64,000 bases of DNA, from positions 62,001 through 126,000 of the forward strand of contig CP095846.1 in assembly GCA_023100825.1 (NCBI GenBank), read 5' to 3'. The DNA is from Nocardioidaceae bacterium SCSIO 66511. GTDB taxonomy: Bacteria; Actinomycetota; Actinomycetes; Propionibacteriales; Nocardioidaceae. Position 1 is the first letter of the stretch. Each line of letters begins with the position of its first letter. The notes below the pieces were generated by a model that made no database searches, had not been told where the DNA came from, and saw nothing but the letters and a program-made list of their open reading frames with translations. Positions 1,977 through 62,775 of the stretch are shown one piece after another. A program made the translations under genes and the position numbers.

Positions 1977-2498
1977 ATGACGACAGCCGACTCGGTCGAC
2001 GAGCACGTAGCCGCATGGGCCGAGGAGCTGGACTGGCTCGACCCGGTGCACGAGGCGATCGTTGCGCGGATGATGATCCTGACCAAGCATCTGCAGAACG
2101 CCAGGGCGCGCGCGTTCGCGGCCGAACAGCTCTCGCTCGCATCCTTCAAGGTGCTGCTCGCATTGCGGCGACTCGGCGAGCCGTACTGCACCAGCCCGTC
2201 CCGGCTGGCCGATCTGTTGACCCTGAGTCGAGGAGCGCTTTCCGCCCGGCTGGCGCCGCTCGAGGACGACGGGTTGATCGCGCGCTCGGTGGAGGCGACC
2301 GACCGCAGGCGCGTACACGTGCGGTTGACCGATGCAGGCATGACCGCACTTGACGCACACGGATACGCGGAAGGAGCAGCCGAGGCGGAGGTGCTCGATC
2401 GACTGGATCGAGACGACCAAAAACGACTGGCCGACCTGCTGCGGGTGCTCGTTATCGGCGTCGAGGGGCCCGTTGACCCCTGGGCGGTCCCAGGTTGA
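1977..2498 (+). CDS. MarR-family transcriptional regulator
   Basis: A 173-residue winged-helix dimeric repressor or activator of the MarR family. Residues about 60-130 show the pattern: a helix (LASFKVLLALRRLG), the recognition-helix region (SPSRLADLLTLSRGALSARL) and the wing (DRRRVHVRLTDAG). The DDGLIARS segment before the wing is typical. I chose the ATG at 1977 because it follows GGGCGG at a usable distance. An upstream in-frame start at 1932 would run into the promoter. The ligand is unknown. It is divergent from the TPR gene and lies 31 bp before an exported hydrolase, either of which could be its target. Confidence 0.85.
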   Translation: MTTADSVDEHVAAWAEELDWLDPVHEAIVARMMILTKHLQNARARAFAAEQLSLASFKVLLALRRLGEPYCTSPSRLADLLTLSRGALSARLAPLEDDGLIARSVEATDRRRVHVRLTDAGMTALDAHGYAEGAAEAEVLDRLDRDDQKRLADLLRVLVIGVEGPVDPWAVPG

Positions 2499-2529
2499 CC
2501 CGCTCCCCGCGGTCGGTGAGCGTGCAGGT

Positions 2530-4245
2530 ATGCGTACCTCCACCATCGGTCGGCTCGCGGTCGTCGCCCTACCCCTTGTCGGCCTGCTCGCACCCGTCGT
2601 CGCTACGAACAGCGTTCACGCGGTCGAGCCGACCACCCAGCAATCACTCACGGACGCGGCCGTGCCGGACATCGACTGGCAGACCTGCGATCTGATCTAC
2701 CAATGCGCCAAGGTCGAGGTGCCGCTCGACCACGACGACCCCTCCGGCGAGACCACGAAGCTGCCGATCAAGCGGCTGCCGGCGAGCAACCCTGCCGAAC
2801 GTGTCGGCGCGTTGTTCATGAACTTCGGCGGCCCGGGTGCGACGGCCGCCGACAACATCCAGTTCACTGGCGCGTCGCTGATGTTCGGCAACGATGTACG
2901 CGCGAAGTTCGACATCGTCGGCCTCGATCCACGCGGGACCAGCGAACAGACGCTGACCTGTGCACCCGCTCCGGACACCGAGGCGCCTCCCGCTCCGACC
3001 ACGATGGCACCCGAGACGCCGGAAGAGATCGCGGCCAAGATCGCCTATGACGACTACGTCCGCGACAGCTGCGACAAGACGGCCCCGCCGATCATCGATC
3101 ACATGAGCACGGCCGACGTCGCGCGCGATATGGACCTCGTCCGGCAGGCGCTCGGTGACGAAAAGCTCTCCTACTACGGCCTTTCGTACGGCAGCGTCCT
3201 CGGTGAGACGTACGCATCGATGTTCCCCGACCGGGTAGGGGCGATGGTCATCGACGGCGTCATCGACCCCGTCACTTACGCCAACGACGACGGGAGCGGT
3301 GAGCCGTACACGTCCCGATGGGGGATGGCGCCCGGCATCGAGGAAGCCCTGAGCTCCGCCTTCGCACGATGCGACAAGGTCGGCATTCTGCGCTGCCCCC
3401 TCGCGGGTAACGCCTGGAAGCGGTGGCATCGGGTGGTCGACTCGCTCGACAAGCAGCCTCTCGCCCTGCCGGGCCTCACGATCGACGGCGAGTACTTCAA
3501 GTACGGATTGACGGTCAACGCCCTCCAGATGCATCGAATCGGTGGCGTCCCGCTGCCGACGATCGAACTGCTCGCAGGTGCGACGAAGATCATCGATGTG
3601 CTGAGGTTCGGCCTGAGCCAGCCGGCAGCACGCAGCTCTGACAGCACGTTGCGGCTACCCGGGGTCGGGCGGGTAGACCTCGGGGCACAGAACTCGGTGC
3701 TGCTCGATCGCCTCGGCGAGATCGTACGCAAGATCATGGACCAGGCGGAGAAGTACGGCTTCCCGCCACTCTCCTCGAGTGGTGTCGCCGCCGATCAAGG
3801 TCCGGACGAGCCCGTGCTCAGCGGTGCGCAGTTCGGCGTGAGCTGTAGCGACACGGAGAACCCGACCGACCCGAATGCGTGGGTCACCGCCGCGGAGAAC
3901 TCGAAAGCCGACGCACCCAACTTCGGGCCAGGCGTCGTCTGGAGCTCGTCCGTCTGCGCCAACTGGCCGGGGTCGTCGGAGAGTGCCTACCGCGGCCCGT
4001 TCGACACGGACACGTCGATGCTGATGATCGGCAACACCCACGACAACGCGACACCGATGGCCGGGGCGAAACTGGCGCACCAGCGCTTCCCCGGATCGAG
4101 CCTGATCACCCTCAACAGCTGGGGTCACACGGCGATCGGCAAGAGCTTCAACTGCATTCAGCCGAAGGTCGACTCGTACCTGTTGACGGAGAAGTTGCCG
4201 GCCGACGGCACGGTCTGCCAGCCGGATGCCCAACTGTTCGGATAG
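2530..4245 (+). CDS. Exported alpha/beta hydrolase, tripeptidyl-aminopeptidase (SlpD/E) type
   Basis: A 571-residue secreted serine hydrolase resembling Streptomyces tripeptidyl aminopeptidases, which remove short peptides from protein N-termini. The signal peptide spans about residues 1-32, ending near VHA. The nucleophile elbow is GLSYGS with Ser219. Asp505 (HDNATP) and His533 (SWGHT) complete the triad in the C-terminal TAP-like region. The oxyanion motif MNFGGPG follows the family pattern. The ATG at 2530 begins a proper signal sequence. The longer frame from 2350 overlaps the marR 3' end and has no export signal at its start. A strong hairpin follows the stop. The true substrate could be peptide or ester. 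Confidence 0.85.
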   Translation: MRTSTIGRLAVVALPLVGLLAPVVATNSVHAVEPTTQQSLTDAAVPDIDWQTCDLIYQCAKVEVPLDHDDPSGETTKLPIKRLPASNPAERVGALFMNFGGPGATAADNIQFTGASLMFGNDVRAKFDIVGLDPRGTSEQTLTCAPAPDTEAPPAPTTMAPETPEEIAAKIAYDDYVRDSCDKTAPPIIDHMSTADVARDMDLVRQALGDEKLSYYGLSYGSVLGETYASMFPDRVGAMVIDGVIDPVTYANDDGSGEPYTSRWGMAPGIEEALSSAFARCDKVGILRCPLAGNAWKRWHRVVDSLDKQPLALPGLTIDGEYFKYGLTVNALQMHRIGGVPLPTIELLAGATKIIDVLRFGLSQPAARSSDSTLRLPGVGRVDLGAQNSVLLDRLGEIVRKIMDQAEKYGFPPLSSSGVAADQGPDEPVLSGAQFGVSCSDTENPTDPNAWVTAAENSKADAPNFGPGVVWSSSVCANWPGSSESAYRGPFDTDTSMLMIGNTHDNATPMAGAKLAHQRFPGSSLITLNSWGHTAIGKSFNCIQPKVDSYLLTEKLPADGTVCQPDAQLFG

Positions 4246-4328: not shown

Positions 4329-5726
4329 ATGCCAGATCTGTTTCCGCTCTACCCCGCCTCATCGGCGGCGGTACGCGCCGCCGCGCGCTCGGGTCACGGC
4401 GCGGCCGAGGCGTTCGGCCGGGTCAGCGAGAGTGTCGAAGCACGCCATCGGGCCGCTGCCGCGGAGGCGACGGACGATCTGCGGGCGACCCTGGACGGTC
4501 CCAGTTACGGTCCGCTGACGACTGACGCCAACGCCCTGCAGCGTGGCGCAATCTGGGCGGCGTCCCAGGTCGAGGTGTTTGCGGACGCGATCGACATCTA
4601 CAACGAGAGCAGCAAGGCACCGCGATCGATCCGCAAGCTGAATGCCGCGTACGCCGAGGCGACGGGTACGAAGCCGGAGGATCCGGCACTCAAGGGTCAG
4701 CTCACGATGGAGAAGGAGCAGCTCGATCGTGCGCTCGACCAGGCTGCCGAACAGGTTGCGGCGAAGCTCAGTCGCCCGCCGACGGATGCGGAGGTACGCG
4801 AGCTCTGGCGAGCGGGCAACCTCCCGATGGCGGCGATCGCGGCCTGGCCGGGTCTGAACCTGCGCTTGACGGACCTGCCGTTCGAGATACGCGACACCGC
4901 CGTCACTGCAGAAGGGTTGCGCTACCTCACCGACCAGCACCTCGTCGATGCGCTCCTGAACCCGAATCTCAATCCCGAGGTACGGCAGCTGATCCTGGAG
5001 AACAGGCCGACGGCGGTCGAACTGCTCGCACAACAGTGGCAGCTGACGCCGGAGACGAAGGCCAGGCTGGATTTCCTCTGCGTTCCGAACTCCGATGGGC
5101 AGATCGTCGGTCCCGACGGGCGGCTCTACTACGTGCAACGGCCCGGCCCAGGCCCCGCGTACGACGGTCCGGTGATCGGTGCCCCGAACGATTTCATCGG
5201 TGACGACGGTCCCGGATCCACCTGGCGCACGTTGATCTCTCGCGATGGAGCGATCGCGTACGGCGACCCGATGGACCTCGCCACGACGATGGCCTTCGTA
5301 CTCGCCGGTGATATCGGCAAGCCGTCGGGCAAATGGCAGTCGATCGGCGACCAGCAGGGTGCGTACGTCACGATGGAGGACGGATCGGTTCGGCTGAACG
5401 ACGGCACCCAGGCGCCCAACGACCAGGCGCCGCCGCCGGGCGGCCCGGTGCCCGAGGGGATGAAACCGCCCAACCCGTACAACGGCGGTGATATCGCCAA
5501 CGGTGGCCTCGGGCTGCTGATCGACGGAGCCGAGGGCCTGAACAACGCCCAACAGGCAGAGTTCAACCGCCACTACGCAACCGAGGTCACCTTCCAAGAG
5601 GACGCTGACGGAAACCGGCGCGCTGTGATCAACCTCTATCAGGTGCAGGCCGACGGAGAGAAGGTCCGGATCGACCACTCTTACGCCGACATCGGACCGG
5701 GCGGCACGATCGTCCCGGCGCCCTGA
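4329..5726 (+). CDS. Hypothetical protein, 465 aa
   Basis: Encodes 465 residues with no signal peptide or membrane segment that I can see. About residues 1-190 are Ala/Glu-rich and helical (YPASSAAVRAAARSGHGAAE; EKEQLDRALDQAAEQVAAKL). The middle (about 230-280) turns beta-like with Tyr/Gly/Pro-rich stretches. The C-terminal third contains a Pro/Gly-rich linker (APPPGGPVPEGMKPPNPYN) and a final charged beta-rich segment. The helical head and separate C-terminal domain recall substrates of specialised secretion, but no WXG motif is visible, so that is only a guess. GGAGG at 4320-4324 supports the ATG at 4329. I do not recognise the family. Confidence 0.65.
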   Translation: MPDLFPLYPASSAAVRAAARSGHGAAEAFGRVSESVEARHRAAAAEATDDLRATLDGPSYGPLTTDANALQRGAIWAASQVEVFADAIDIYNESSKAPRSIRKLNAAYAEATGTKPEDPALKGQLTMEKEQLDRALDQAAEQVAAKLSRPPTDAEVRELWRAGNLPMAAIAAWPGLNLRLTDLPFEIRDTAVTAEGLRYLTDQHLVDALLNPNLNPEVRQLILENRPTAVELLAQQWQLTPETKARLDFLCVPNSDGQIVGPDGRLYYVQRPGPGPAYDGPVIGAPNDFIGDDGPGSTWRTLISRDGAIAYGDPMDLATTMAFVLAGDIGKPSGKWQSIGDQQGAYVTMEDGSVRLNDGTQAPNDQAPPPGGPVPEGMKPPNPYNGGDIANGGLGLLIDGAEGLNNAQQAEFNRHYATEVTFQEDADGNRRAVINLYQVQADGEKVRIDHSYADIGPGGTIVPAP

Positions 5727-6260: not shown

Positions 6261-6289
6261 GACGTCGGATACCTGGTCGTTCTACTGGC

Positions 6290-6937
6290 TCAGGGTTCGA
6301 TCAGGCCGGCGCGGATCGCGTACCGGGTGAGTTCGGTACGATCGCGCATCCCAAGCTTGGACAAGATGTTGGCGCGATGACGCTCAACGGTCTTGTAGCT
6401 GATGACGAGCGTGGCGGCGATCTCCTTCGACGAGTACCCCTCGGCGATCAGCTTCACCACTTGGTCTTCGCGTTCGGTCAGCACCGCGCGCGGTACGCGT
6501 TCGCCACGACGCATCCGCGCCATGAAATCGCTCACCAGCGTGCCGGCGACGCCCGGGTACAGGAACGACTCGCCGCGGATGGCGGCGCGGCATGCGGTGA
6601 TGAGGTCTTCATCGGCCGCAGATTTGAGTACGTACCCGCACGCGCCGTCCTGGAGCGCGGAGAAGAAGTACTGCTCGTTGTCGTACATCGACAGCATCAG
6701 CGTCGGAATATCGGGAAACCGTCGGCTGATCTCGCGGGCGGCCTGCAGACCGGTCATCCGCGGCATGGAGATGTCGAGGATCGCGAGGTCGGGTTCGGTC
6801 GTGCGCGCGAGCTCGACCGCCTCAGCCCCGTCGGCCGCTTCGGCCACGACGCTGAGGTCGGGCTCGGCGTCGAGGATTCGGCGCACGCCGGCACGGACGA
6901 GCGAGTGATCGTCGGCGAGCAGGATTCGTGCGGTCAT
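6290..6937 (-). CDS. NarL/FixJ-family response regulator
   Basis: A 215-residue two-component response regulator. The receiver domain (1-120) has acidic residues Asp9 and Asp10, phosphoacceptor Asp55 in AILDISMP and a conserved Lys near residue 105. The C-terminal LuxR-type helix-turn-helix (about 150-210) contains LTEREDQVVKLIAEGYSSKE and KTVERHRANILSKL. Its start overlaps the stop of the sensor kinase by 4 bp (ATGA), so the two are translationally coupled and probably form one signalling pair. The stimulus is unknown. The neighbouring membrane protein and methyltransferase are possible but unproven targets. Confidence 0.93.
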   Translation of the reverse strand: MTARILLADDHSLVRAGVRRILDAEPDLSVVAEAADGAEAVELARTTEPDLAILDISMPRMTGLQAAREISRRFPDIPTLMLSMYDNEQYFFSALQDGACGYVLKSAADEDLITACRAAIRGESFLYPGVAGTLVSDFMARMRRGERVPRAVLTEREDQVVKLIAEGYSSKEIAATLVISYKTVERHRANILSKLGMRDRTELTRYAIRAGLIEP

Positions 6938-7905
6938 ACGTACTCTCCCGGCACCGGAACCTCGAGCCGGACCTCGGTGCCGCCCTCGGGTCGGGTACGT
7001 ACGTCGAGTTGGCCGGCGACCATGCTTGCGCGTTCGTACATGCCCTGGATTCCGGCACCCATCGCCGACTCATCGCGGCCGGCGCCGTCATCGGCGATCT
7101 CGAGTACGAGGGTCGACTCGCGAAGCCGTAGGTCGAAGTCGATGTTCTGTGCGTTGGCGTGCCTCGTCACGTTCGTCAGCGCCTCCTGCGCCACACGGTA
7201 GATGACCAGCTCGGTCTGTTGTGGCAGTTCGGGGATGTCTGGCGGAAAGCTGCGGTGAACCGAGATGTCCGTACGAGCGTCGAGGTCGTTCGCCAGACCG
7301 GAAAGCGATCTGAGTAGTCCGAGGTCGGCCAGCACGCCGGGCCGGAGCCGCTGGGAGATGCGGCGCACCTCCTCGAGCGTCGTACGAGTGGTGTCGCGGG
7401 CCTGCTCCAGCTCGGGTACGACCCGGTCGGGTGCGGCATCGATCGTCTGCTTCAGGGTCAGCAGGACAACGGTGAGGCTTTGCCCGACCTCATCGTGCAG
7501 CTCTTGGGCGACGCGCTGCCGCTCGGTCTCCTGTGCGCGCAAGGCGCGGGCGGTACTGACGCCCCGCTCGACCTCCAGGCGCTGGAGCATTGCATTGAAT
7601 CCGGCGACGAGCGAACGCGCCGGACCCGATCCGTACTCGTCCAGTCGGCGCCCCGGCCGCCGGAGGTCGATGGTCGCCATGACGGCTGTCAACCGGTCAA
7701 GCGGACGCAGCATCGAGCGAAGCAGCAGCCCATTGAGTGCGACGCTGACGACGAGGCCGATCGACAGGATCACCCCCTCGGACCACAGTGGCCTGGCCGA
7801 GACGGTCATCGGCGACAGCACCAGAACGAGCACGCCGAGTGCGAACACTGCGCCGTTGATCATGCAAACCCGCCAGAACAGCGGTACGGACAACTCCCGA
7901 CTCAT
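6934..7905 (-). CDS. Sensor histidine kinase, NarX/LiaS type (HisKA_3)
   Basis: A 323-residue membrane histidine kinase partnering the overlapping response regulator. Two N-terminal hydrophobic segments (about 8-32 and 40-62) flank a very short extracytoplasmic loop. They are followed by a HAMP-like linker (MLRPLDRLTAVM), the HisKA_3 dimerisation helix with the phosphorylated His137 (QELHDEVGQSL), and an HATPase domain with QEALTNVTRHANA and DDGAG. A short loop between two helices is common in kinases that sense the membrane. I start at the ATG at 7905. An upstream in-frame ATG at 7956 would add 17 residues rich in Cys and His with no export logic. Confidence 0.9.
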   Translation of the reverse strand: MSRELSVPLFWRVCMINGAVFALGVLVLVLSPMTVSARPLWSEGVILSIGLVVSVALNGLLLRSMLRPLDRLTAVMATIDLRRPGRRLDEYGSGPARSLVAGFNAMLQRLEVERGVSTARALRAQETERQRVAQELHDEVGQSLTVVLLTLKQTIDAAPDRVVPELEQARDTTRTTLEEVRRISQRLRPGVLADLGLLRSLSGLANDLDARTDISVHRSFPPDIPELPQQTELVIYRVAQEALTNVTRHANAQNIDFDLRLRESTLVLEIADDGAGRDESAMGAGIQGMYERASMVAGQLDVRTRPEGGTEVRLEVPVPGEYV

Positions 7906-15011: not shown

Positions 15012-15321
15012 GTTCCTACGGTGCGGCTACCCCGCCTGCCCACCTCGGTTCGCGCTCGGCTTTCCCGCTACGTCTGGCTGGGCAGACGCGGCGACGCGCG
15101 GAGGCGCCATTTCGGTTCGGTTGCTTGGCGGCTTTCGCGGCACTTTGAGATGGGATCGGGGTAACGTTCGGATTCGGCGTCACATACGTACCGATGGCCA
15201 CGTACGAACCAATCGGCGTGGCAAGGTGCCACTTTGCACGGTGTAGCTGCCGTGCAAAGTGGAGTTTCACCATGTCTACTTGGTAAACGACCACCACCGA
15301 CTCCGCAAGAACCGACCGCTA
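15012..15321 (-). repeat. Dispersed repeat, copy A (partial, inverted)
   Basis: First of four copies of a roughly 0.5-kb intergenic repeat, in opposite orientation to the others. The central hairpin (15229-15262; CCACTTTGCACGG and CCGTGCAAAGTGG) and the adjoining GTTTCACCATGTCTACTTGG are nearly identical to the other copies. One long arm (15012-15130; includes GGTTCGGTTGCTTGGCGGCT) is present. The other arm is cut off where the next gene's stop codon begins at 15319. It lies exactly between convergent genes. Confidence 0.85.
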
Positions 15322-16080
15322 CGGGGCATACGAGCGAGTGAGTCGCTGGACCTCCGCGTACGCAATCGCCTCCGGACTCGTTCCGGCGCGTACGCAGTCG
15401 ACTGCGGTAACCGCGGCTGCGAGGGCAGCCCGGTACGGGAGTGATCCCGAGCTGACCCGACGAACGCCGAGCTCGGAGAGCTCGGCAACGCTGAGGCCCG
15501 GTTGGGGCAGGACGTTCAGGGGTACGTCGAACCCGGATGCGAGCGCGACGATCGTCTCTGGATCGAATGCGCCGGGTACGAAGACTCCGTCTGCACCGGC
15601 CCCGACATAGTGTCGCGCGCGTTCGAGGGTGTGCTCGATGGTCGCGTCCTGACCGAGCCAGAACGTGTCGACCCGCGCGTTCACGAACACGGCGTCGCCG
15701 CAGGTCGCTTTGATCTCGGCGATCTTCGATGCGTGGGCCACTGGTTCGATCAGCGTTTCCGAGGTGCTGTCCTCGATGTTGATGCCTGCGACGCCCAACT
15801 CGTCGACATACGCGGCGACCCGGGCCGGATCGCCGTCGAATCCGTCTTCAATGTCTGCTGAGACGTGCACGGGCAGAGTACGAAGGGCGCGTACGAGGTC
15901 GCGCGTACGCTCTCGGCCGCCGCGCGCTCCGTCGGGGTGGCCGTGACTCGCTGAGACACCGAGGCTGGTCGTACCGACGGCGGGGTGACCGGCATCGACG
16001 AACGCGAGCGCCGAGGCGACGTCCCAGGCATTCGGCAACAGCAGCGCCCCGCGACCGTGATGCAGATCGGCGAACGTCAT
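15319..16080 (-). CDS. Isocitrate lyase/PEP mutase family protein
   Basis: A 253-residue (beta/alpha)8 enzyme of the PEP-mutase/isocitrate-lyase superfamily, which makes or breaks C-C or C-P bonds in 2-oxo or dicarboxylic acids with Mg2+. Visible motifs are LPNAWDVASA, the loop GTTSLGVSASHGHPDG, VSADIEDGFDGDP, INIEDS and FVNARVDTFW. The KKCGH active-site signature of true isocitrate lyase is absent, so another reaction such as a methylmalonate-type lyase is likely. The ATG at 16080 overlaps the upstream stop by 4 bp. It is the last gene of a minus-strand operon and its 3' end touches repeat copy A. Confidence 0.82.
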   Translation of the reverse strand: MTFADLHHGRGALLLPNAWDVASALAFVDAGHPAVGTTSLGVSASHGHPDGARGGRERTRDLVRALRTLPVHVSADIEDGFDGDPARVAAYVDELGVAGINIEDSTSETLIEPVAHASKIAEIKATCGDAVFVNARVDTFWLGQDATIEHTLERARHYVGAGADGVFVPGAFDPETIVALASGFDVPLNVLPQPGLSVAELSELGVRRVSSGSLPYRAALAAAVTAVDCVRAGTSPEAIAYAEVQRLTRSYAP

Positions 16081-23752: not shown

Positions 23753-25138
23753 ATGATTCGCAGGTACGCCACCCTGTCGGTGGCTACGGCCCTGGTGGCC
23801 GGCGCGTGCCTCACGGCACCGCCGGCCACGGCCGCCGATCACTCGTCGGCACGGGCGCGGTTCATCTCGGCCGATGTCGCAGGCATCGACCTCGGGCCGC
23901 TCGCCGCGCTGAAGGGTGTGACGGCCCATCAGCGCGGCGGGCATACGGTCACGAAGGCGAACAAGTTCAAGGGCTCGTTGCTCGGTACGACGATCCCGCT
24001 GAACAAGTACGCCAAGCAGCTCACCCTCGGCGGAGCCATCACCATGGGTGGCATCACGCAGTACGCGCAGGCCAAGTCGAACGGCCGGTCCCGGGCGTAC
24101 GCGGGTCTCGTGAGCTCGTCGGGGGCGATCGGCGACAACGGCGGGCACCGGGTGCCGAAGAGCGCGACCGTCAATCTGTCGAAGCTGATGAAGGGTCGCG
24201 TACCGGACTTCGTCAACGAGCAGGTCAAGGATCTCCGCGTCAGGTTCCGGGGCCTGACCGCCGTCGCCGCGATGAACGGACGGCGCAACGACGCACCGGC
24301 GACGCGATGCCGGAACCTCGACCGACCGAAGCACTGTCTCGGCTATCAGCTCGGCAACGTTTCGATCGGTGCGCGCCTCCCGGCGCTGAAGGACCTGTAC
24401 GCGCAGGTCAGCCCCCTGTGGTCGGCGTTCGACGGCAAGTCCAAGCCGATCGGTGAGATCTGCCGCTCGCTGCTGCGACCGCTGCCGCAAGTCCAGCCGG
24501 CATGCGGTGCGCTGGACAACAACCCGTTCATGCAGGTGAGCATCAAGCCGCCGAATGCGAACGCGTTGATCAATGTGTTCCGGCGGGCCGGTCGACACCA
24601 TGGTCTGTTCGTGAACCCGAAGACCGGCGCGGTCAAGCTCGACGCAGATCGCTTCCTGTCGGGGATGGGCGTTGACGTCAACCGGCTCGGGCAGGGCACC
24701 AACGTCGTCAGCTACGTGACACAGGCGATGGACACCGGCGTGGCCACGGCACTCAACCAGACGGCACAGCGGGTGATCGACGAGGTCGTCGCCGAGCTCG
24801 AGAAGTCGGCGATCACGATTCGTCCTGCCGGCGGAGCGCCGTTCACGGTGCATGTTCGTGACCTGTCGCCGCTGTACCTGCCACTGGTCTACGCACTGAA
24901 GGCGGCCGTCACGGAAGGCATCCGCCACGGCGTCGGCCAGGTCACAAGCCAGATCCTGCCCGCGCTTCGGCAGGCCGACGCGTACAGCAACCAGGTCCAG
25001 CTGCTTGCGAACGTGCAAGACCGGACCCCGAGCGGTGCGTACCGCGTCACTGCCTTGCGCGTACGGATCAACGACCAGGAGGCGCTGCCCGGCAACGTCG
25101 ATCTCGCGACAGTGGCGGTCGGCCCGAACGGGCGGTGA
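23753..25138 (+). CDS. Secreted choice-of-anchor G family protein
   Basis: A 461-residue exported protein with a signal peptide (1-27, ending ATA) and a repeat-poor beta-rich body. The arrangement GSLLGTTIPLNKYAKQLTLG, PVGPNG-like C-terminus and paired cysteines (TRCRNLDRPKHC; EICRSLLRPLPQVQPAC) resembles actinobacterial choice-of-anchor G proteins, which are surface or wall-associated and of unknown function. No clear LPxTG or hydrophobic anchor is present at the C-terminus, so it may be released or bound through another protein. It is transcribed with the cutinase-like gene, and repeat copy B follows the stop. Confidence 0.7.
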   Translation: MIRRYATLSVATALVAGACLTAPPATAADHSSARARFISADVAGIDLGPLAALKGVTAHQRGGHTVTKANKFKGSLLGTTIPLNKYAKQLTLGGAITMGGITQYAQAKSNGRSRAYAGLVSSSGAIGDNGGHRVPKSATVNLSKLMKGRVPDFVNEQVKDLRVRFRGLTAVAAMNGRRNDAPATRCRNLDRPKHCLGYQLGNVSIGARLPALKDLYAQVSPLWSAFDGKSKPIGEICRSLLRPLPQVQPACGALDNNPFMQVSIKPPNANALINVFRRAGRHHGLFVNPKTGAVKLDADRFLSGMGVDVNRLGQGTNVVSYVTQAMDTGVATALNQTAQRVIDEVVAELEKSAITIRPAGGAPFTVHVRDLSPLYLPLVYALKAAVTEGIRHGVGQVTSQILPALRQADAYSNQVQLLANVQDRTPSGAYRVTALRVRINDQEALPGNVDLATVAVGPNGR

Positions 25139-25159
25139 ACTGCGGGTCGGTCTTCCCCG

Positions 25160-25652
25160 CTTCTACCGTGCGACTACTCGTCTGCCCGGTCCCGCTCGCT
25201 GTCGGCTTTCCCGGCTCCTTCGGCTGGGGAAAGACGCGGCGACGCGGGGGCCGCAACTACGACCTCGGGTTGCTTGCCGGCTCACCCGTTCCGGTCGGCT
25301 TTTGTGGGGTCGATGGGTGGCGCTTTACCAAGTAAACATGGTGAAACTCCACTTTGCACGGCGTGGACACCGTGCAAAGTGACAGGTTGCCGTGCTCGTT
25401 GGTACGCCAGCGACTACCGGTACGGATGTGACGTCGAAACCGAACGTTACCCCGATCCCATATTAAGGTTCGGGGAAGCCGCCAAGCAACCGAACCGAAC
25501 TGGCGCCTCCGCGCGTCGCCGCGTCTTTCCCCAGCCGAAGGAAGCAGAAGGCCGACAGCGACGAGGAATCGGGCAGGCGGGTGGTCGCAGGCGAGGCAAA
25601 CGGATCAACTGACAGCGCAGCCGAATCGGGCAGCCGGGAGGTCGCACCGACC
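25160..25652 (+). repeat. Dispersed repeat, copy B (full length)
   Basis: Best full-length copy. The left arm (about 25163-25300) reads TGCGACTACTCGTCTGCCCG, then TCGGCTGGGGAAAGACGCGG. The right arm (about 25475-25590) is its imperfect inverted complement, with GCCGCCAAGCAACCGAACCG and CGCCGCGTCTTTCCCCAGCC. The centre holds TTTACCAAGTAAACATGG and a 12-bp hairpin (25350-25361, 25370-25381). The outer right end appears twice (25549-25590 and 25611-25652). The copy fills the gap between two convergent genes. Confidence 0.9.
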
Positions 25653-25662
25653 GAAGTTGCCT

Positions 25663-26040
25663 TCACCGCTCGCTGTGCAGTGTCGTGTGCAGTAACGCCT
25701 CGACGCTCTCGTGGTCGAGTCCGGCGTCGCGGGCGTGCCGCAGCCAGACCTGTAGTTCGCGGCGAAGCGGGGCGTGTGCCGCGATCTCCGCGTCGGAGAC
25801 AGGGGTGAGTACGAAGGTGCCGACGCCGGGTCGCGCCTCGACAAGACCGTCGCGCTCCAGCTCGCGGTACGCCCGGAGCACCGTGTTGGGGTTGATCGCG
25901 AGCTGTGCGGCCGCACCCTTCACCGTCGGGAGCTGATCGCCCTTCCGCAGCATCCCGAGAGTCAGCGCGTGCCGAACCTGCCGCACGATCTGCCAGTACG
26001 AGGAGATGCCGGAACGCTCATCCAGGTAGAACTCGATCAC
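25663..26040 (-). CDS. GntR-family regulator, YtrA type
   Basis: A 125-residue regulator with the short YtrA layout: a GntR winged helix (residues about 12-78; YWQIVRQVRHALTLGMLRKG, LAINPNTVLRAYRELERDG, GVGTFV) and a small C-terminal helical pair for dimerisation. YtrA-type regulators usually control ABC exporter operons. Here the gene lies 44 bp after the sulfate importer operon on the same strand and may be co-transcribed with it. It could regulate the importer or be an unrelated gene. Repeat copy B begins 11 bp after its stop. Confidence 0.85.
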   Translation of the reverse strand: MIEFYLDERSGISSYWQIVRQVRHALTLGMLRKGDQLPTVKGAAAQLAINPNTVLRAYRELERDGLVEARPGVGTFVLTPVSDAEIAAHAPLRRELQVWLRHARDAGLDHESVEALLHTTLHSER

Positions 26041-33069: not shown

Positions 33070-34640
33070 AGTACCTCATCCGTGGGGGTTCGATCGTCGA
33101 CGGCACCGGTGCGCAGCCGGTACGCGGCGACCTCCTCTTATCGGGGTCTCGCATCGCCGCCCGCTTGGCGCCGGGTGAGACCGGGCCAACCGATGCGGTG
33201 GTCATCGATGCGACCGGGCGGTACGTGTGCCCGGGTTTCATCGACGTTCATTCGCATGCGGACAACTCACCGTTGCTCGAGAGCGATGATCGCTCGAAGC
33301 TGATGCAGGGCGTGACGACCGAGATCGTCGGGAACTGCGGATTCAGTCTTGCGCCCGCGGCACCGGGCCGCCGGATGGAGTTCGGGGAGTACCTGCGCAG
33401 GTTGTTTCCGCCGACCAGCGTTCGATGGTCGACGTTCGGTGAGTTCCTGGCACACGTCGACGAGCGCGGGTCGGTCACCAACTACTGCCCTCTGGTCGGC
33501 CACGGTGCGCTCCGGTTCGCCGTCGTGGGTATGAACCGCGGGTTGGACTCGACGGAGTTGCAACGGATGCGGTCCGAGTTGGAGGCAGCGCTCGAAGCCG
33601 GCGCATTCGGGATGTCGAGCGGGCTCGTCTACCCGCCCGGATCATCTGCAGACAGCGCTGAGATCACGTACCTCGCCGACGCGCTGCAGGGCCGGATCTA
33701 CGCGACGCATCAGCGGGCCGAGGGCGCGCATCTGATGCCGAGCCTGGCCGAAGCACTCGACGTCGCGCGGAGCACGAGCGCGCGGCTCCAGATCTCGCAC
33801 CTCAAGGCGATGGGTCGTCCGAACTGGGGAGCAACCAGAGCAGCGCTCTACGCGATCGACGAAGCATCGGACGCGGGTGCGTCGGTTGCGCAAGACGTCT
33901 ACCCCTACACCGCGACGTCGACGACGTTGATGTCACTGCTCCCGCCAGAGTTCCTCGTCGGCACCAACCAGGAGGTGCTCGATCGACTCGGGTCCCGCGG
34001 TGCGGTCGATCGGCTGCGGGAGTTGCTCGAATCCGGAGTCGACGGGTGGGAGAACCGCGCCGCGTACGCCGGGTGGGGCGGAGTGCTGGTTTCGTACAGC
34101 GCGAGCGGTGCAGATCAGGGCCGGACGCTGGCCGCGATCGCCGAGGAAGCCGGCGAGGACCCGGTCGAGACCCTCGTACGCGTACTTCGCCGGGAACGCC
34201 TCGAGGTGACCGCGAGTACGTTCCTGATGGACGAACGTGACATCGAGGTGGTGCTCGGGCATCCACGGACGATGATCGGCTCCGATGGTCTCCCCGTCGG
34301 AGCCGCGGCCAGACCGCATCCGCGGTTGTTCGGCACCTTCCCGCGGATTTTCGCCCAGTACGTCGGCTCCGGTCGGCCGCTCGACTTCGCGGAGGCAGTA
34401 CGTCGGATGACCTCGTTGCCAGCAGAGTGGTTCCGCGTCCCAGAACGCGGTCTGATCAGGTCCGGGATGATCGCGGACCTCGTGATCGTCAACCCGCTCG
34501 CCGTCAGCGACACCGCGACGTATGCGGAGCCGGAGCAGTATCCCGAGGGTGTGGAAACGGTGGTTCTGGGCGGACAGCCGGTGGTCCGCGACGCCGTCTA
34601 CTGCGGTGAGCGCCGAGGCACGCGTTTGGAGCCGGCATGA
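33066..34640 (+). CDS. N-acyl-D-amino-acid deacylase (D-aminoacylase)
   Basis: A 524-residue amidohydrolase that frees D-amino acids from N-acyl derivatives. The metal site starts at FIDVHSHAD (His62, His64). It continues with GNCGFSLAPA, a conserved zinc-bridging Cys in this family, THQRAEG, LQISHLKAMG (His) and MIGSDGLPVG (Asp). The order fits the D-aminoacylase branch of the urease-like superfamily. The TTG start at 33066 overlaps the previous stop (TTGA) and follows a GGAAAGG ribosome site. It fits its neighbours: uptake, then deacylation, then oxidation of the D-amino acid. Confidence 0.9.
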   Translation: MKYLIRGGSIVDGTGAQPVRGDLLLSGSRIAARLAPGETGPTDAVVIDATGRYVCPGFIDVHSHADNSPLLESDDRSKLMQGVTTEIVGNCGFSLAPAAPGRRMEFGEYLRRLFPPTSVRWSTFGEFLAHVDERGSVTNYCPLVGHGALRFAVVGMNRGLDSTELQRMRSELEAALEAGAFGMSSGLVYPPGSSADSAEITYLADALQGRIYATHQRAEGAHLMPSLAEALDVARSTSARLQISHLKAMGRPNWGATRAALYAIDEASDAGASVAQDVYPYTATSTTLMSLLPPEFLVGTNQEVLDRLGSRGAVDRLRELLESGVDGWENRAAYAGWGGVLVSYSASGADQGRTLAAIAEEAGEDPVETLVRVLRRERLEVTASTFLMDERDIEVVLGHPRTMIGSDGLPVGAAARPHPRLFGTFPRIFAQYVGSGRPLDFAEAVRRMTSLPAEWFRVPERGLIRSGMIADLVIVNPLAVSDTATYAEPEQYPEGVETVVLGGQPVVRDAVYCGERRGTRLEPA

Positions 34641-46954: not shown

Positions 46955-47462
46955 GTACTAGCTTCTGGTGCGACTGCCCGCCTGCTTCGTTTCCGCCTCG
47001 CTGTGGCGTCGCGCACCTTCTACGGCGACTACTCGCTTGCCCGATGCCTCGTCGCTGTCGGCTATCCCCGCCCCTTCGGTTGAGTAAAAGACGCGGCGAC
47101 GCGGGAGGCGCAACTACATGGATCGGGTTGCTCGCCGGCTAACCCGTTCCGGTCGGCGTTTGCGGGGTCGGTGGGTGGTGGTTTACCAAGTAAACATGGT
47201 GAAACTCCGCTTTGCATGGCAGGTTCGCCGTGCAAAGTGACACGTTGCCGTGCCCGTAGGTACGCCAGCGACTACCGGTACGGAAGTGACACCGAAACCG
47301 GACGTTACCCCGATGCCATACTAAGGTGGCGGGGAAGCCGCCAAGCAACCGAACCGAAGCGGCGACTCCGCGCGTCGCCGCGTCTTTTGCCCAGCCGGAG
47401 TAAGTGGGAAAGCCGACAGCGACGAGGACCGGGCAGGCGAGTAGTCGTACCGACGGAGCCCA
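46955..47462 (+). repeat. Dispersed repeat, copy C (full length)
   Basis: Full copy with both arms. The left arm end appears twice (46963-47005 and from 47018), so the outer end is duplicated. The centre has GTTTACCAAGTAAACATGG and a hairpin at 47208-47239. Both differences from copy B inside the stem (A to G at 47209 and C to T at 47217) keep pairing as G-U in a plus-strand RNA. The right arm (47330-47462) carries GCCGCCAAGCAACCGAACCG and CGCCGCGTCTTTTGCCCAGC. It separates two convergent genes. Confidence 0.9.
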
Positions 47463-54042: not shown

Positions 54043-54110
54043 AACCGCCGAGGTACGGACTCGGTCCCGTGGCGGTGTGCGCACGGGAGGGAATCCGTAC
54101 CTCGGCGGTT
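54043..54110 (-). terminator. Compound terminator of the Ebo operon
   Basis: Outer arms 54043-54059 and 54094-54110 pair perfectly over 17 bp. An inner 7-bp stem (TCCCGTG 54065-54071, CACGGGA 54082-54088) makes a cruciform-like element. On the minus strand a T-rich TTGTTTCTG follows. It begins 24 bp after the last operon gene's stop, and separates it from the ThuA operon promoter. Confidence 0.8.
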
Positions 54111-62399: not shown

Positions 62400-62775
62400 C
62401 GCCGATTCCTTCGGTGCGACTACCCACCACAACGGTTCTGTGCGCTGTCGGCGTGTGCGCTCCTGTGGTCCGACGACCCGTCTGCCCGACGGGGCTTCGT
62501 TGTCGGCTTCCCCGGCCCTTCGGCGGGCAAAAGACGCGGCGAAGCCGGAGCCGCAGCTACCTGGCTCGGGCCTACTGCCGGCTAACCCGATTCGGTTGGC
62601 TTTGCTGGTCGATGGATGGTGCTTTACCAAGTAGACATGGTGAAACTCCACTTTGCACGGCGCGTACGCCGTGCAAAGTGGAAGTTTGCCGTGCCTGCTG
62701 GTACGCGAGCGGCCGCCGAGTCTGGTGGGACGCGAAACGAAGGTTACCCCGAACCCATATCAAGGTGGCGCGCAG
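62400..62775 (+). repeat. Dispersed repeat, copy D (right arm missing)
   Basis: Fourth copy, same orientation as B and C. The left arm is present with its outer end duplicated (62410-62450 and from 62470). The centre has CTTTACCAAGTAGACATGG and a 14-bp hairpin with a 4-nt loop (62649-62680). After the block GTTACCCCGAACCCATATCA the right arm is lost, and the aminopeptidase stop codon follows at 62806. This copy lies between two minus-strand genes, not convergent ones. Confidence 0.85.

Follow-up and report, generated by a model that had tools for sequence, protein, structure and literature searches.

A dispersed palindromic repeat with a hairpin core at gene 3′ ends in Nocardioidaceae, also found as inverted copies on both sides of an AbiEi-like gene

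What is a non-coding repeat of about 0.5 kb doing between genes all along one actinobacterial chromosome, and how did it come to be there? The question arises from the window (the whole stretch of 64,000 nucleotides that was analysed) in the genome of Nocardioidaceae bacterium SCSIO 66511 (G000; 4.61 Mb, single contig, 67% G+C). A sequence-only reading had described four intergenic copies in the window, one of them inverted, and local BLASTN with the copy at 25160-25652 recovered the other three (Table 1). The true number is far larger, and a four-copy description understates it: the 4.6-Mb chromosome holds 81 strong matches to the core of the repeat. A core pattern matched 65 places genome-wide at up to 3 mismatches (reversed-pattern control, 0), BLASTN with the repeat gave 135 pieces (40 scored of 127 candidates), and a covariance model from 69 cores of this genome (R1; four longer-core copies left out) gave at least 104 matches, of which at least 81 scored 75 bits or higher; these R1 counts are lower bounds, with 150 of 2450 candidates scored, and some matches are the two strands of one place. 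The core-pattern and BLASTN copies together make up a study set of 73, with two additional arm-only copies outside it.

The copies average 66% identity over 500 bp and are therefore old. Folding of the full copy as RNA gave -297.7 kcal/mol against a shuffle mean of -209.2 (z = -12.1; 0 of 100 shuffles equalled it). Three copies (L095, L118 and L136) share a near-identical centre and differ in their arms, which suggests gene conversion. The positions of the 81 copies are compatible with a uniform spread along the chromosome (KS p = 0.28), neither half shows a strand bias, and on these grounds a chromosome-organising site was rejected. An origin from a phage or plasmid is ruled against by the absence of any match to the repeat among plasmids and phages and of the exact core from IMG/VR. 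Six matches of an 18-mer to unrelated taxa among genome contigs were taken as chance.

Table 1. Coordinates of the repeat, its parts and related loci (window positions unless a locus is named).
Feature	Position	Strand	Basis
Window	G000:C1:62001-126000		source genome (G000)
Full repeat copy	25160..25652	+	sequence, inverted-repeat analysis, BLASTN, RNA folding
Left outer unit, CGACTAC end, one of the 55-bp units	25169..25204	+	sequence, unit motif scan
Left inner arm, pairs with 25509-25542	25216..25249	+	97% complementary
Core A, 22-bp near-palindrome TTTACCAAGTAAACATGGTGAA	25324..25345	+	core pattern, block identity, covariance model, alignment
Core B hairpin	25350..25381	+	inverted repeat, covariance model, alignment
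Core C half-site TTGCCGTGC	25387..25395	+	sequence, covariance model, core comparison
Right inner arm	25509..25542	+	inverted-repeat analysis
Right outer unit 1	25554..25589	+	inverted-repeat analysis
Right outer unit 2	25611..25646	+	inverted-repeat analysis
Second window copy, inverted	15016..15325, core 15261-15287	-	local BLASTN 80% (15325-15031), core pattern
Third window copy	47017..47450, core 47182-47208	+	local BLASTN 86% (47017-47447), core pattern
Fourth window copy	62468..62766, core 62623-62649	+	local BLASTN 79%, core pattern
L168, boxed gene locus	element 1834-1944, gene 2043-3032, element 3040-3149	elements + and -	covariance-model matches
L250 (G028)	element 6288-6391, gene to 7392, element 7385-7493	elements + and -	22.8 bits (+), 29.5 bits (-)
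Collinsella aerofaciens arrays of ~60-bp palindromes, TGTCTCGATCTGTAACA...TGTTACAGATCGAGACA	L272:18228-18455, 24006-24151, 25328-25550, 33076-33210		

The core has three parts: A, a 22-bp near-palindrome (TTYACCAAGTARACATGGTGAA); B, a hairpin of 10-12 bp, which is the central hairpin of the earlier description; and C, a half-site. In four copies (L088, L105, L108 and L144) the core is longer, with about 30 additional bases between A and B. That the centre is the best-kept part of the repeat holds in part. Mean pairwise identity in A is 0.93, against 0.80-0.86 in the adjoining 50-bp blocks and 0.42-0.75 in the outer blocks (38 of the 40 copies that the left arm alone had recovered); a block of the inner arm (GACGCGGCGACGCGGG) is kept about equally well, so the centre is not the sole conserved part.

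From the outer edge inward, the order is inverted-orientation 55-bp units, inner arms and core. The inner arms pair over 34 nt at 97%, with further pairing blocks, and to this extent are the inverted complements that had been described; the outer arms have no single fixed form and are arrays of units of about 55 bp, of which 0-4 were detected to the left of the core and 0-3 to its right. Next to an 8-bp self-overlap of the motif, 53-56 bp was the commonest spacing in the unit motif scan. The tetranucleotide GTAG is present in the outer units (GGGTAGTCG) and absent beside any core hairpin. When pairing between the two arms of one copy was set against pairing across copies, the own arms had no clear advantage: a rough alignment gave z = 0.26 and a local alignment found own-arm pairing to be better in 43 of 69 copies (p = 0.058); in a middle block of pairs, within-copy pairing was ahead (z = 2.6). 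Mispairs in the arms were G-U in 219 cases and A-C in 205, and with the two kinds equal a strand-specific RNA over the whole element is unsupported. The core leans to G-U, with G-U:A-C ratios over few columns of 48:20 in B and 37:0 in A.

The arms behave like decaying inverted repeats, and one might take the family for MITE-like remnants of the ordinary kind, left by a DDE transposon whose terminal inverted repeats survive as the decaying arms. We consider this improbable. Long inverted arms, conserved blocks within them and arms free of pairing-specific covariation would all fit such remnants, but inverted arms are present here with ends that shift by variable 55-bp units, the core is kept about as well as the ends or better, and no target duplication was found at nine empty sites in the sister species (G001) or among 52 two-ended copies. 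The sequence-only reading had likewise seen no target duplication; the test is weak because the exact ends of these old copies are not defined.

The sister species carries the core in another form. In its genome the palindrome TTTACCATGTWWACATGGTAAA occurs 56 times with up to 3 mismatches allowed (none in the control), often in pairs 62 bp apart around a B hairpin, and one long element was seen. In 39 of these palindromes with their flanks, the outside bases covary: the first outside pair is G-C in 24 and C-G in 11, and the second is C-G in 18 and T-A in 13. Two short elements lie at orthologous sites in G000 and G001, and their stems carry compensatory changes. Placement in G001 was tried for 26 copies of G000 (the four of the window and 22 others); 17 were resolved on both sides and nine were unresolved. 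None of the 17 placed sites holds the long element, an absence that would also fit a MITE-like origin. Nine are short gaps of 12-172 bp, three of which hold a different hairpin; the remaining eight are filled by other sequence, 0.8-6.5 kb long, in which stop-free runs span 201-1026 codons and nothing matches the element (best E 0.13). With eight filled sites against nine short gaps, the idea that the element marks gene loss was not pressed. The amplification of the long-arm form to about 81 copies probably came after the split from G001.

Several side observations belong to the same comparison. At all four sites that correspond to the window copies, G001 has 0.8-4.6 kb of mostly open-frame other sequence. 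A second hairpin family, CGAGGTACG...CGTACCTCG (window 54049-54104), has 12 exact matches in G000, 41 in G001 and none in the four other genera tried; in its inner stems the two sides change together, and in G001 one of its copies occupies the spot where G000 has a long element. A third hairpin, around TAGACATTTGTCA...TGACAAATGTCTA, lies at two G001 gene ends (L202 and L165).

Outside the genus, a strict palindrome pattern found nothing (of the 293 genomes drawn from the order, a sample without G001, only G000 matched), and BLASTN gave marginal matches only. The covariance model R1 matched 15 of 61 genomes of the family at E <= 0.001, G000 and G001 included. From the other 13 genomes, 29 of 36 matches were read, taken from ten (G003, G023 and G060 were left out), and 28 of the 29 have the same A-B-C plan in other letters; the exception (L217) is without the left half of A. 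The palindrome in these genera centres on CCANG-N4-CNTGG or a near variant, followed by the B hairpin and the C half-site. Elements often match on both strands with differing scores, and the better strand was used.

For covariation we aligned 36 cores with MAFFT: 28 from other genera, five short ones from G000 and G001, and three long ones (L234 was omitted). Paired cells made up 90.7%, against 73.0% in shuffled alignments, which ignore relatedness, and 35-39% when the pairing was slid; both-side changes occur in 18 of the 24 pairs. Because R1 selects for its own pairs, the nine pairs outside it were counted separately, and here 85.5% of cells are paired against 59.3%, with a covariation score of 0.611 against 0.169; the count of double-change pairs was not above the shuffles (76 of 500 reached it). 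The letters CCA.G and their partners are invariant in 35 of 35 lettered rows, possibly in part by ascertainment, as R1 carries these letters. Other genera have the core without arms, and the core is older than the arms, points that speak against terminal inverted repeats as the origin of the family.

The place of the repeat among genes points to the ends of transcripts. By a codon-usage gene caller, the 73 copies lie between 28 convergent, 37 tandem and 8 divergent gene pairs, against 58 convergent, 239 tandem and 59 divergent among 356 background pairs (window and G001 stretches); the convergent excess of the G000 copies is significant (convergent versus all others, p = 8e-5). Measured from the outermost unit, in copies that have units, the median distance to a convergent stop codon is 37 bp (41 distances); in 20 tandem cases the 3′ end is 30 bp away and the next start 90 bp (p = 0.001). 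Core orientation in the G000 tandem copies is independent of the genes (20 versus 16). The short versions of G001 also tend to sit after stop codons, with 6 of 23 at convergent pairs, which is not significant (p = 0.25). In other genera the core usually comes directly after a stop codon, and 22 of 25 cores lie in the sense of the upstream gene (p = 1.6e-4), three loci without a gene call and L234, inside a predicted gene, being excluded. The earlier suggestion of a bound or transcribed element fits this sense orientation and the cross-genus covariation; own-arm pairing gives no clear sign that the arms are conserved as a fold.

These data raise the alternative that the core is no more than a family-wide terminator or mRNA 3′-end hairpin that duplication and gene conversion have spread. 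The position after stop codons, the sense orientation and the convergent excess in G000 all favour it, as do the unrelated hairpins that occupy the same spots in G001 and the presence of the second hairpin family in both species. A scan for U-tract terminators at 24900-25900 found none in this one copy (shuffle mean, 0.8), which counts against an intrinsic terminator of that kind, but PMC8355165 reports that adjacent hairpins within about 50 bases of a stop codon terminate without a U-tract. A terminator has no need of invariant stem letters, although those seen here may in part reflect ascertainment. We think it somewhat unlikely that termination is the whole explanation, and our preferred reading keeps it as one part of a dispersed, REP-like family: the hairpins at gene 3′ ends probably have the ending of transcripts as a second role, the one copy scanned having no U-tract.

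What sets this family apart is a gene enclosed by it. A gene of 329 aa lies between the two orthologous short elements at L168, and L161 is arranged likewise; a 36%-identical gene is enclosed in G028, a member of another genus, so that inverted copies box the gene in three genomes (G000, G001 and G028). The neighbours of the G000 and G028 genes differ. The flanks of the boxed genes show complementarity of 87% over 69 nt and of 81% over 74 nt. In G028 the 5′ flanking copy is a weak match, and the 3′ copy is 84-89% identical to five dispersed copies of that genome and at most 62% to copies of other genera; for the 5′ flanking copy in G000 the contrast is slight (0.66-0.80 to its own genus, at most 0.65 to others). 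Were the gene merely flanked by terminators, one would not expect two genera to have this gene between inverted copies, nor the lineage-specific letters of the repeat to follow the boxed gene, as they do in G028. The boxing of one gene by inverted copies suggests a little-known kind of self-spreading DNA.

The N-terminus of the encoded protein is an AbiEi_4 domain in both G000 and G028, and PADLOC AbiEi models match three of the four proteins tested. Five homologs share the C-terminal residues E204, G207-E208-S209-R210, D241, G251-E252 and D254-G255. By comparison with the DUF559/Vsr pattern we read these residues as PD-(D/E)XK-like, and the C-terminus looks like a nuclease of the PD-(D/E)XK/DUF559 type; the sole library match in favour of this reading is to DUF559 in the Collinsella protein (E 0.022, below the cut-off). 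Among solved structures there was one chance-like match, and among phage records one weak match; no relatives on viral contigs were confirmed. A RAYT was rejected as the associated protein, since its Y1 transposase domain (PF01797) is absent from both G000 and G001, against 5 of 14 control genomes that have it.

An AbiEi_4 protein beside palindromes could also be an orphan AbiEi-type regulator that binds nearby palindromes for autoregulation and has nothing to do with dispersal. AbiEi antitoxins are reported to bind inverted repeats (PMC7319586), and the PADLOC matches agree with such a protein. We regard this as very doubtful: the repeat is also found 3′ of the gene and at the ends of many unrelated genes, a regulator would leave the conserved residues of the C-terminus unexplained, and the four nearby ORFs tested include no AbiEii toxin (their matches are GNAT/NUDIX, none, PqqD and a sugar NTP_transferase).

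Distant homologs have a similar setting. A tblastn search of plasmid records gave two, in Tsukamurella tyrosinosolvens and Collinsella aerofaciens, and both genes have inverted palindromic repeats on either side, the right-hand arm in Tsukamurella overlapping the 3′ end of the gene. For complementarity of flanks in stretches of 49-50 kb, the Tsukamurella gene ranks first of 44 and the Collinsella gene first of 38. In the loci of the Nocardioidaceae family, the three boxed genes take places 2-4 of 460, after a pstS-like gene. The pstS-like gene (L211, G001) lies between 81-nt inverted repeats (3056-3136 and 4370-4450; 80% complementary) that by eye are unrelated to the core family. The Collinsella palindrome forms arrays that flank the AbiEi-like gene on either side and recur at two more intergenic sites within 49 kb; the Tsukamurella palindrome is present at three more places, spread over two other records from that strain, and one of these places is 45 bp after a gene.

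Our main reading, at a probability of about 0.5, is that the repeat is a REP-like, non-autonomous palindromic family with a 3′-end hairpin role, dispersed in trans by the boxed protein; the dispersal by this protein, the DNA recognition and the termination are steps that we infer. The A-B-C hairpin core just after stop codons would be the working part, with the probable role of ending or protecting transcripts, and of doing so for both genes where two converge. The same core would be the presumed recognition site of the boxed protein: the AbiEi_4 part would recognise the palindrome, the predicted nuclease-like C-terminus would cut, and the protein would act in trans to move or duplicate the solo copies. 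Long inverted arms with variable 55-bp units would have been added to the core in this lineage, and the repeat amplified to about 81 copies. A wider proposal, which we hold only tentatively, is that Actinomycetota-wide AbiEi_4/PD-(D/E)XK-like proteins, unrelated to known transposases, may be a second, independently evolved system of the REP/RAYT kind, recognising the hairpins that bound their own genes and dispersing solo copies to gene 3′ ends. If this is true, genes bounded by palindromes that they disperse evolved more than once, and a role is suggested for AbiEi-like 'orphan antitoxins'. The covarying core also offers a testable model for the ending of convergent genes in GC-rich bacteria.

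How does the repeat compare with known systems? The sequence-only reading had called it no standard REP, MITE or known RNA. As to RNA this stands: no Rfam family reached its gathering score in the window, and the one match at E <= 5 was far under its own. A literature search that excluded most subscription papers and preprints found no published match to the core letters, and among titles and abstract starts there was no report of palindromic or REP repeats tied to AbiEi, DUF559 or Actinobacteria. As to REPs the statement needs qualifying, because the one-gene layout is that of REP/RAYT and the core is a family-wide motif. MITEs are alike in size (~0.5 kb), non-coding nature, inverted arms, copy number and absence at placed sister-species sites; by the MITE definition of PMC10969869 the repeat differs, as neither fixed ends nor a target duplication was found and its covarying core is common to several genera. 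BOX, RUP and SPRITE of Streptococcus are likewise modular, SPRITE lying near the 3′ ends of convergent genes according to PMC3049150; their sequence plan is different, and here the tandem units are inverted and external to the core, and a gene is boxed. Hairpin-cluster terminators resemble the core in having adjacent hairpins close to the stop codon with no need of a U-tract (PMC8355165), whereas the repeat has conserved letters and lineage-specific families. The AbiE type IV toxin-antitoxin system shares the AbiEi_4 domain and the PADLOC AbiEi matches with the boxed gene, which differs in its additional conserved C-terminus and in having no AbiEii in the neighbouring ORFs tested.

The closest likeness is to REP/REPIN sequences with their RAYT. 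According to PMC2817692, PMC3116915 and PMC3733652 these are palindromic, extragenic, dispersed and found beside stop codons, with lineage-specific letters in which pairing is kept; PMC2817692 describes one RAYT gene between two inverted REPs with solo copies at gene ends, and reports RAYT homologs by its own criteria only from gammaproteobacteria, while 'Actinobacteria' is absent from the main text of the tagged-REP survey (PMC3733652). Unlike a REP, which is a single hairpin of 20-40 bp with a GTAG/CGTC tag, the core here is about 85 bp with two hairpins, and in G000 it has long arms. With no Y1 (HUH) transposase domain in G000 or G001 and a different protein in its place, the repeat is not a member of the REP/RAYT family. 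The layout is nevertheless the same, one gene between two inverted copies, and at L168, L161 and L250 the flanked open reading frame encodes the AbiEi_4 protein.
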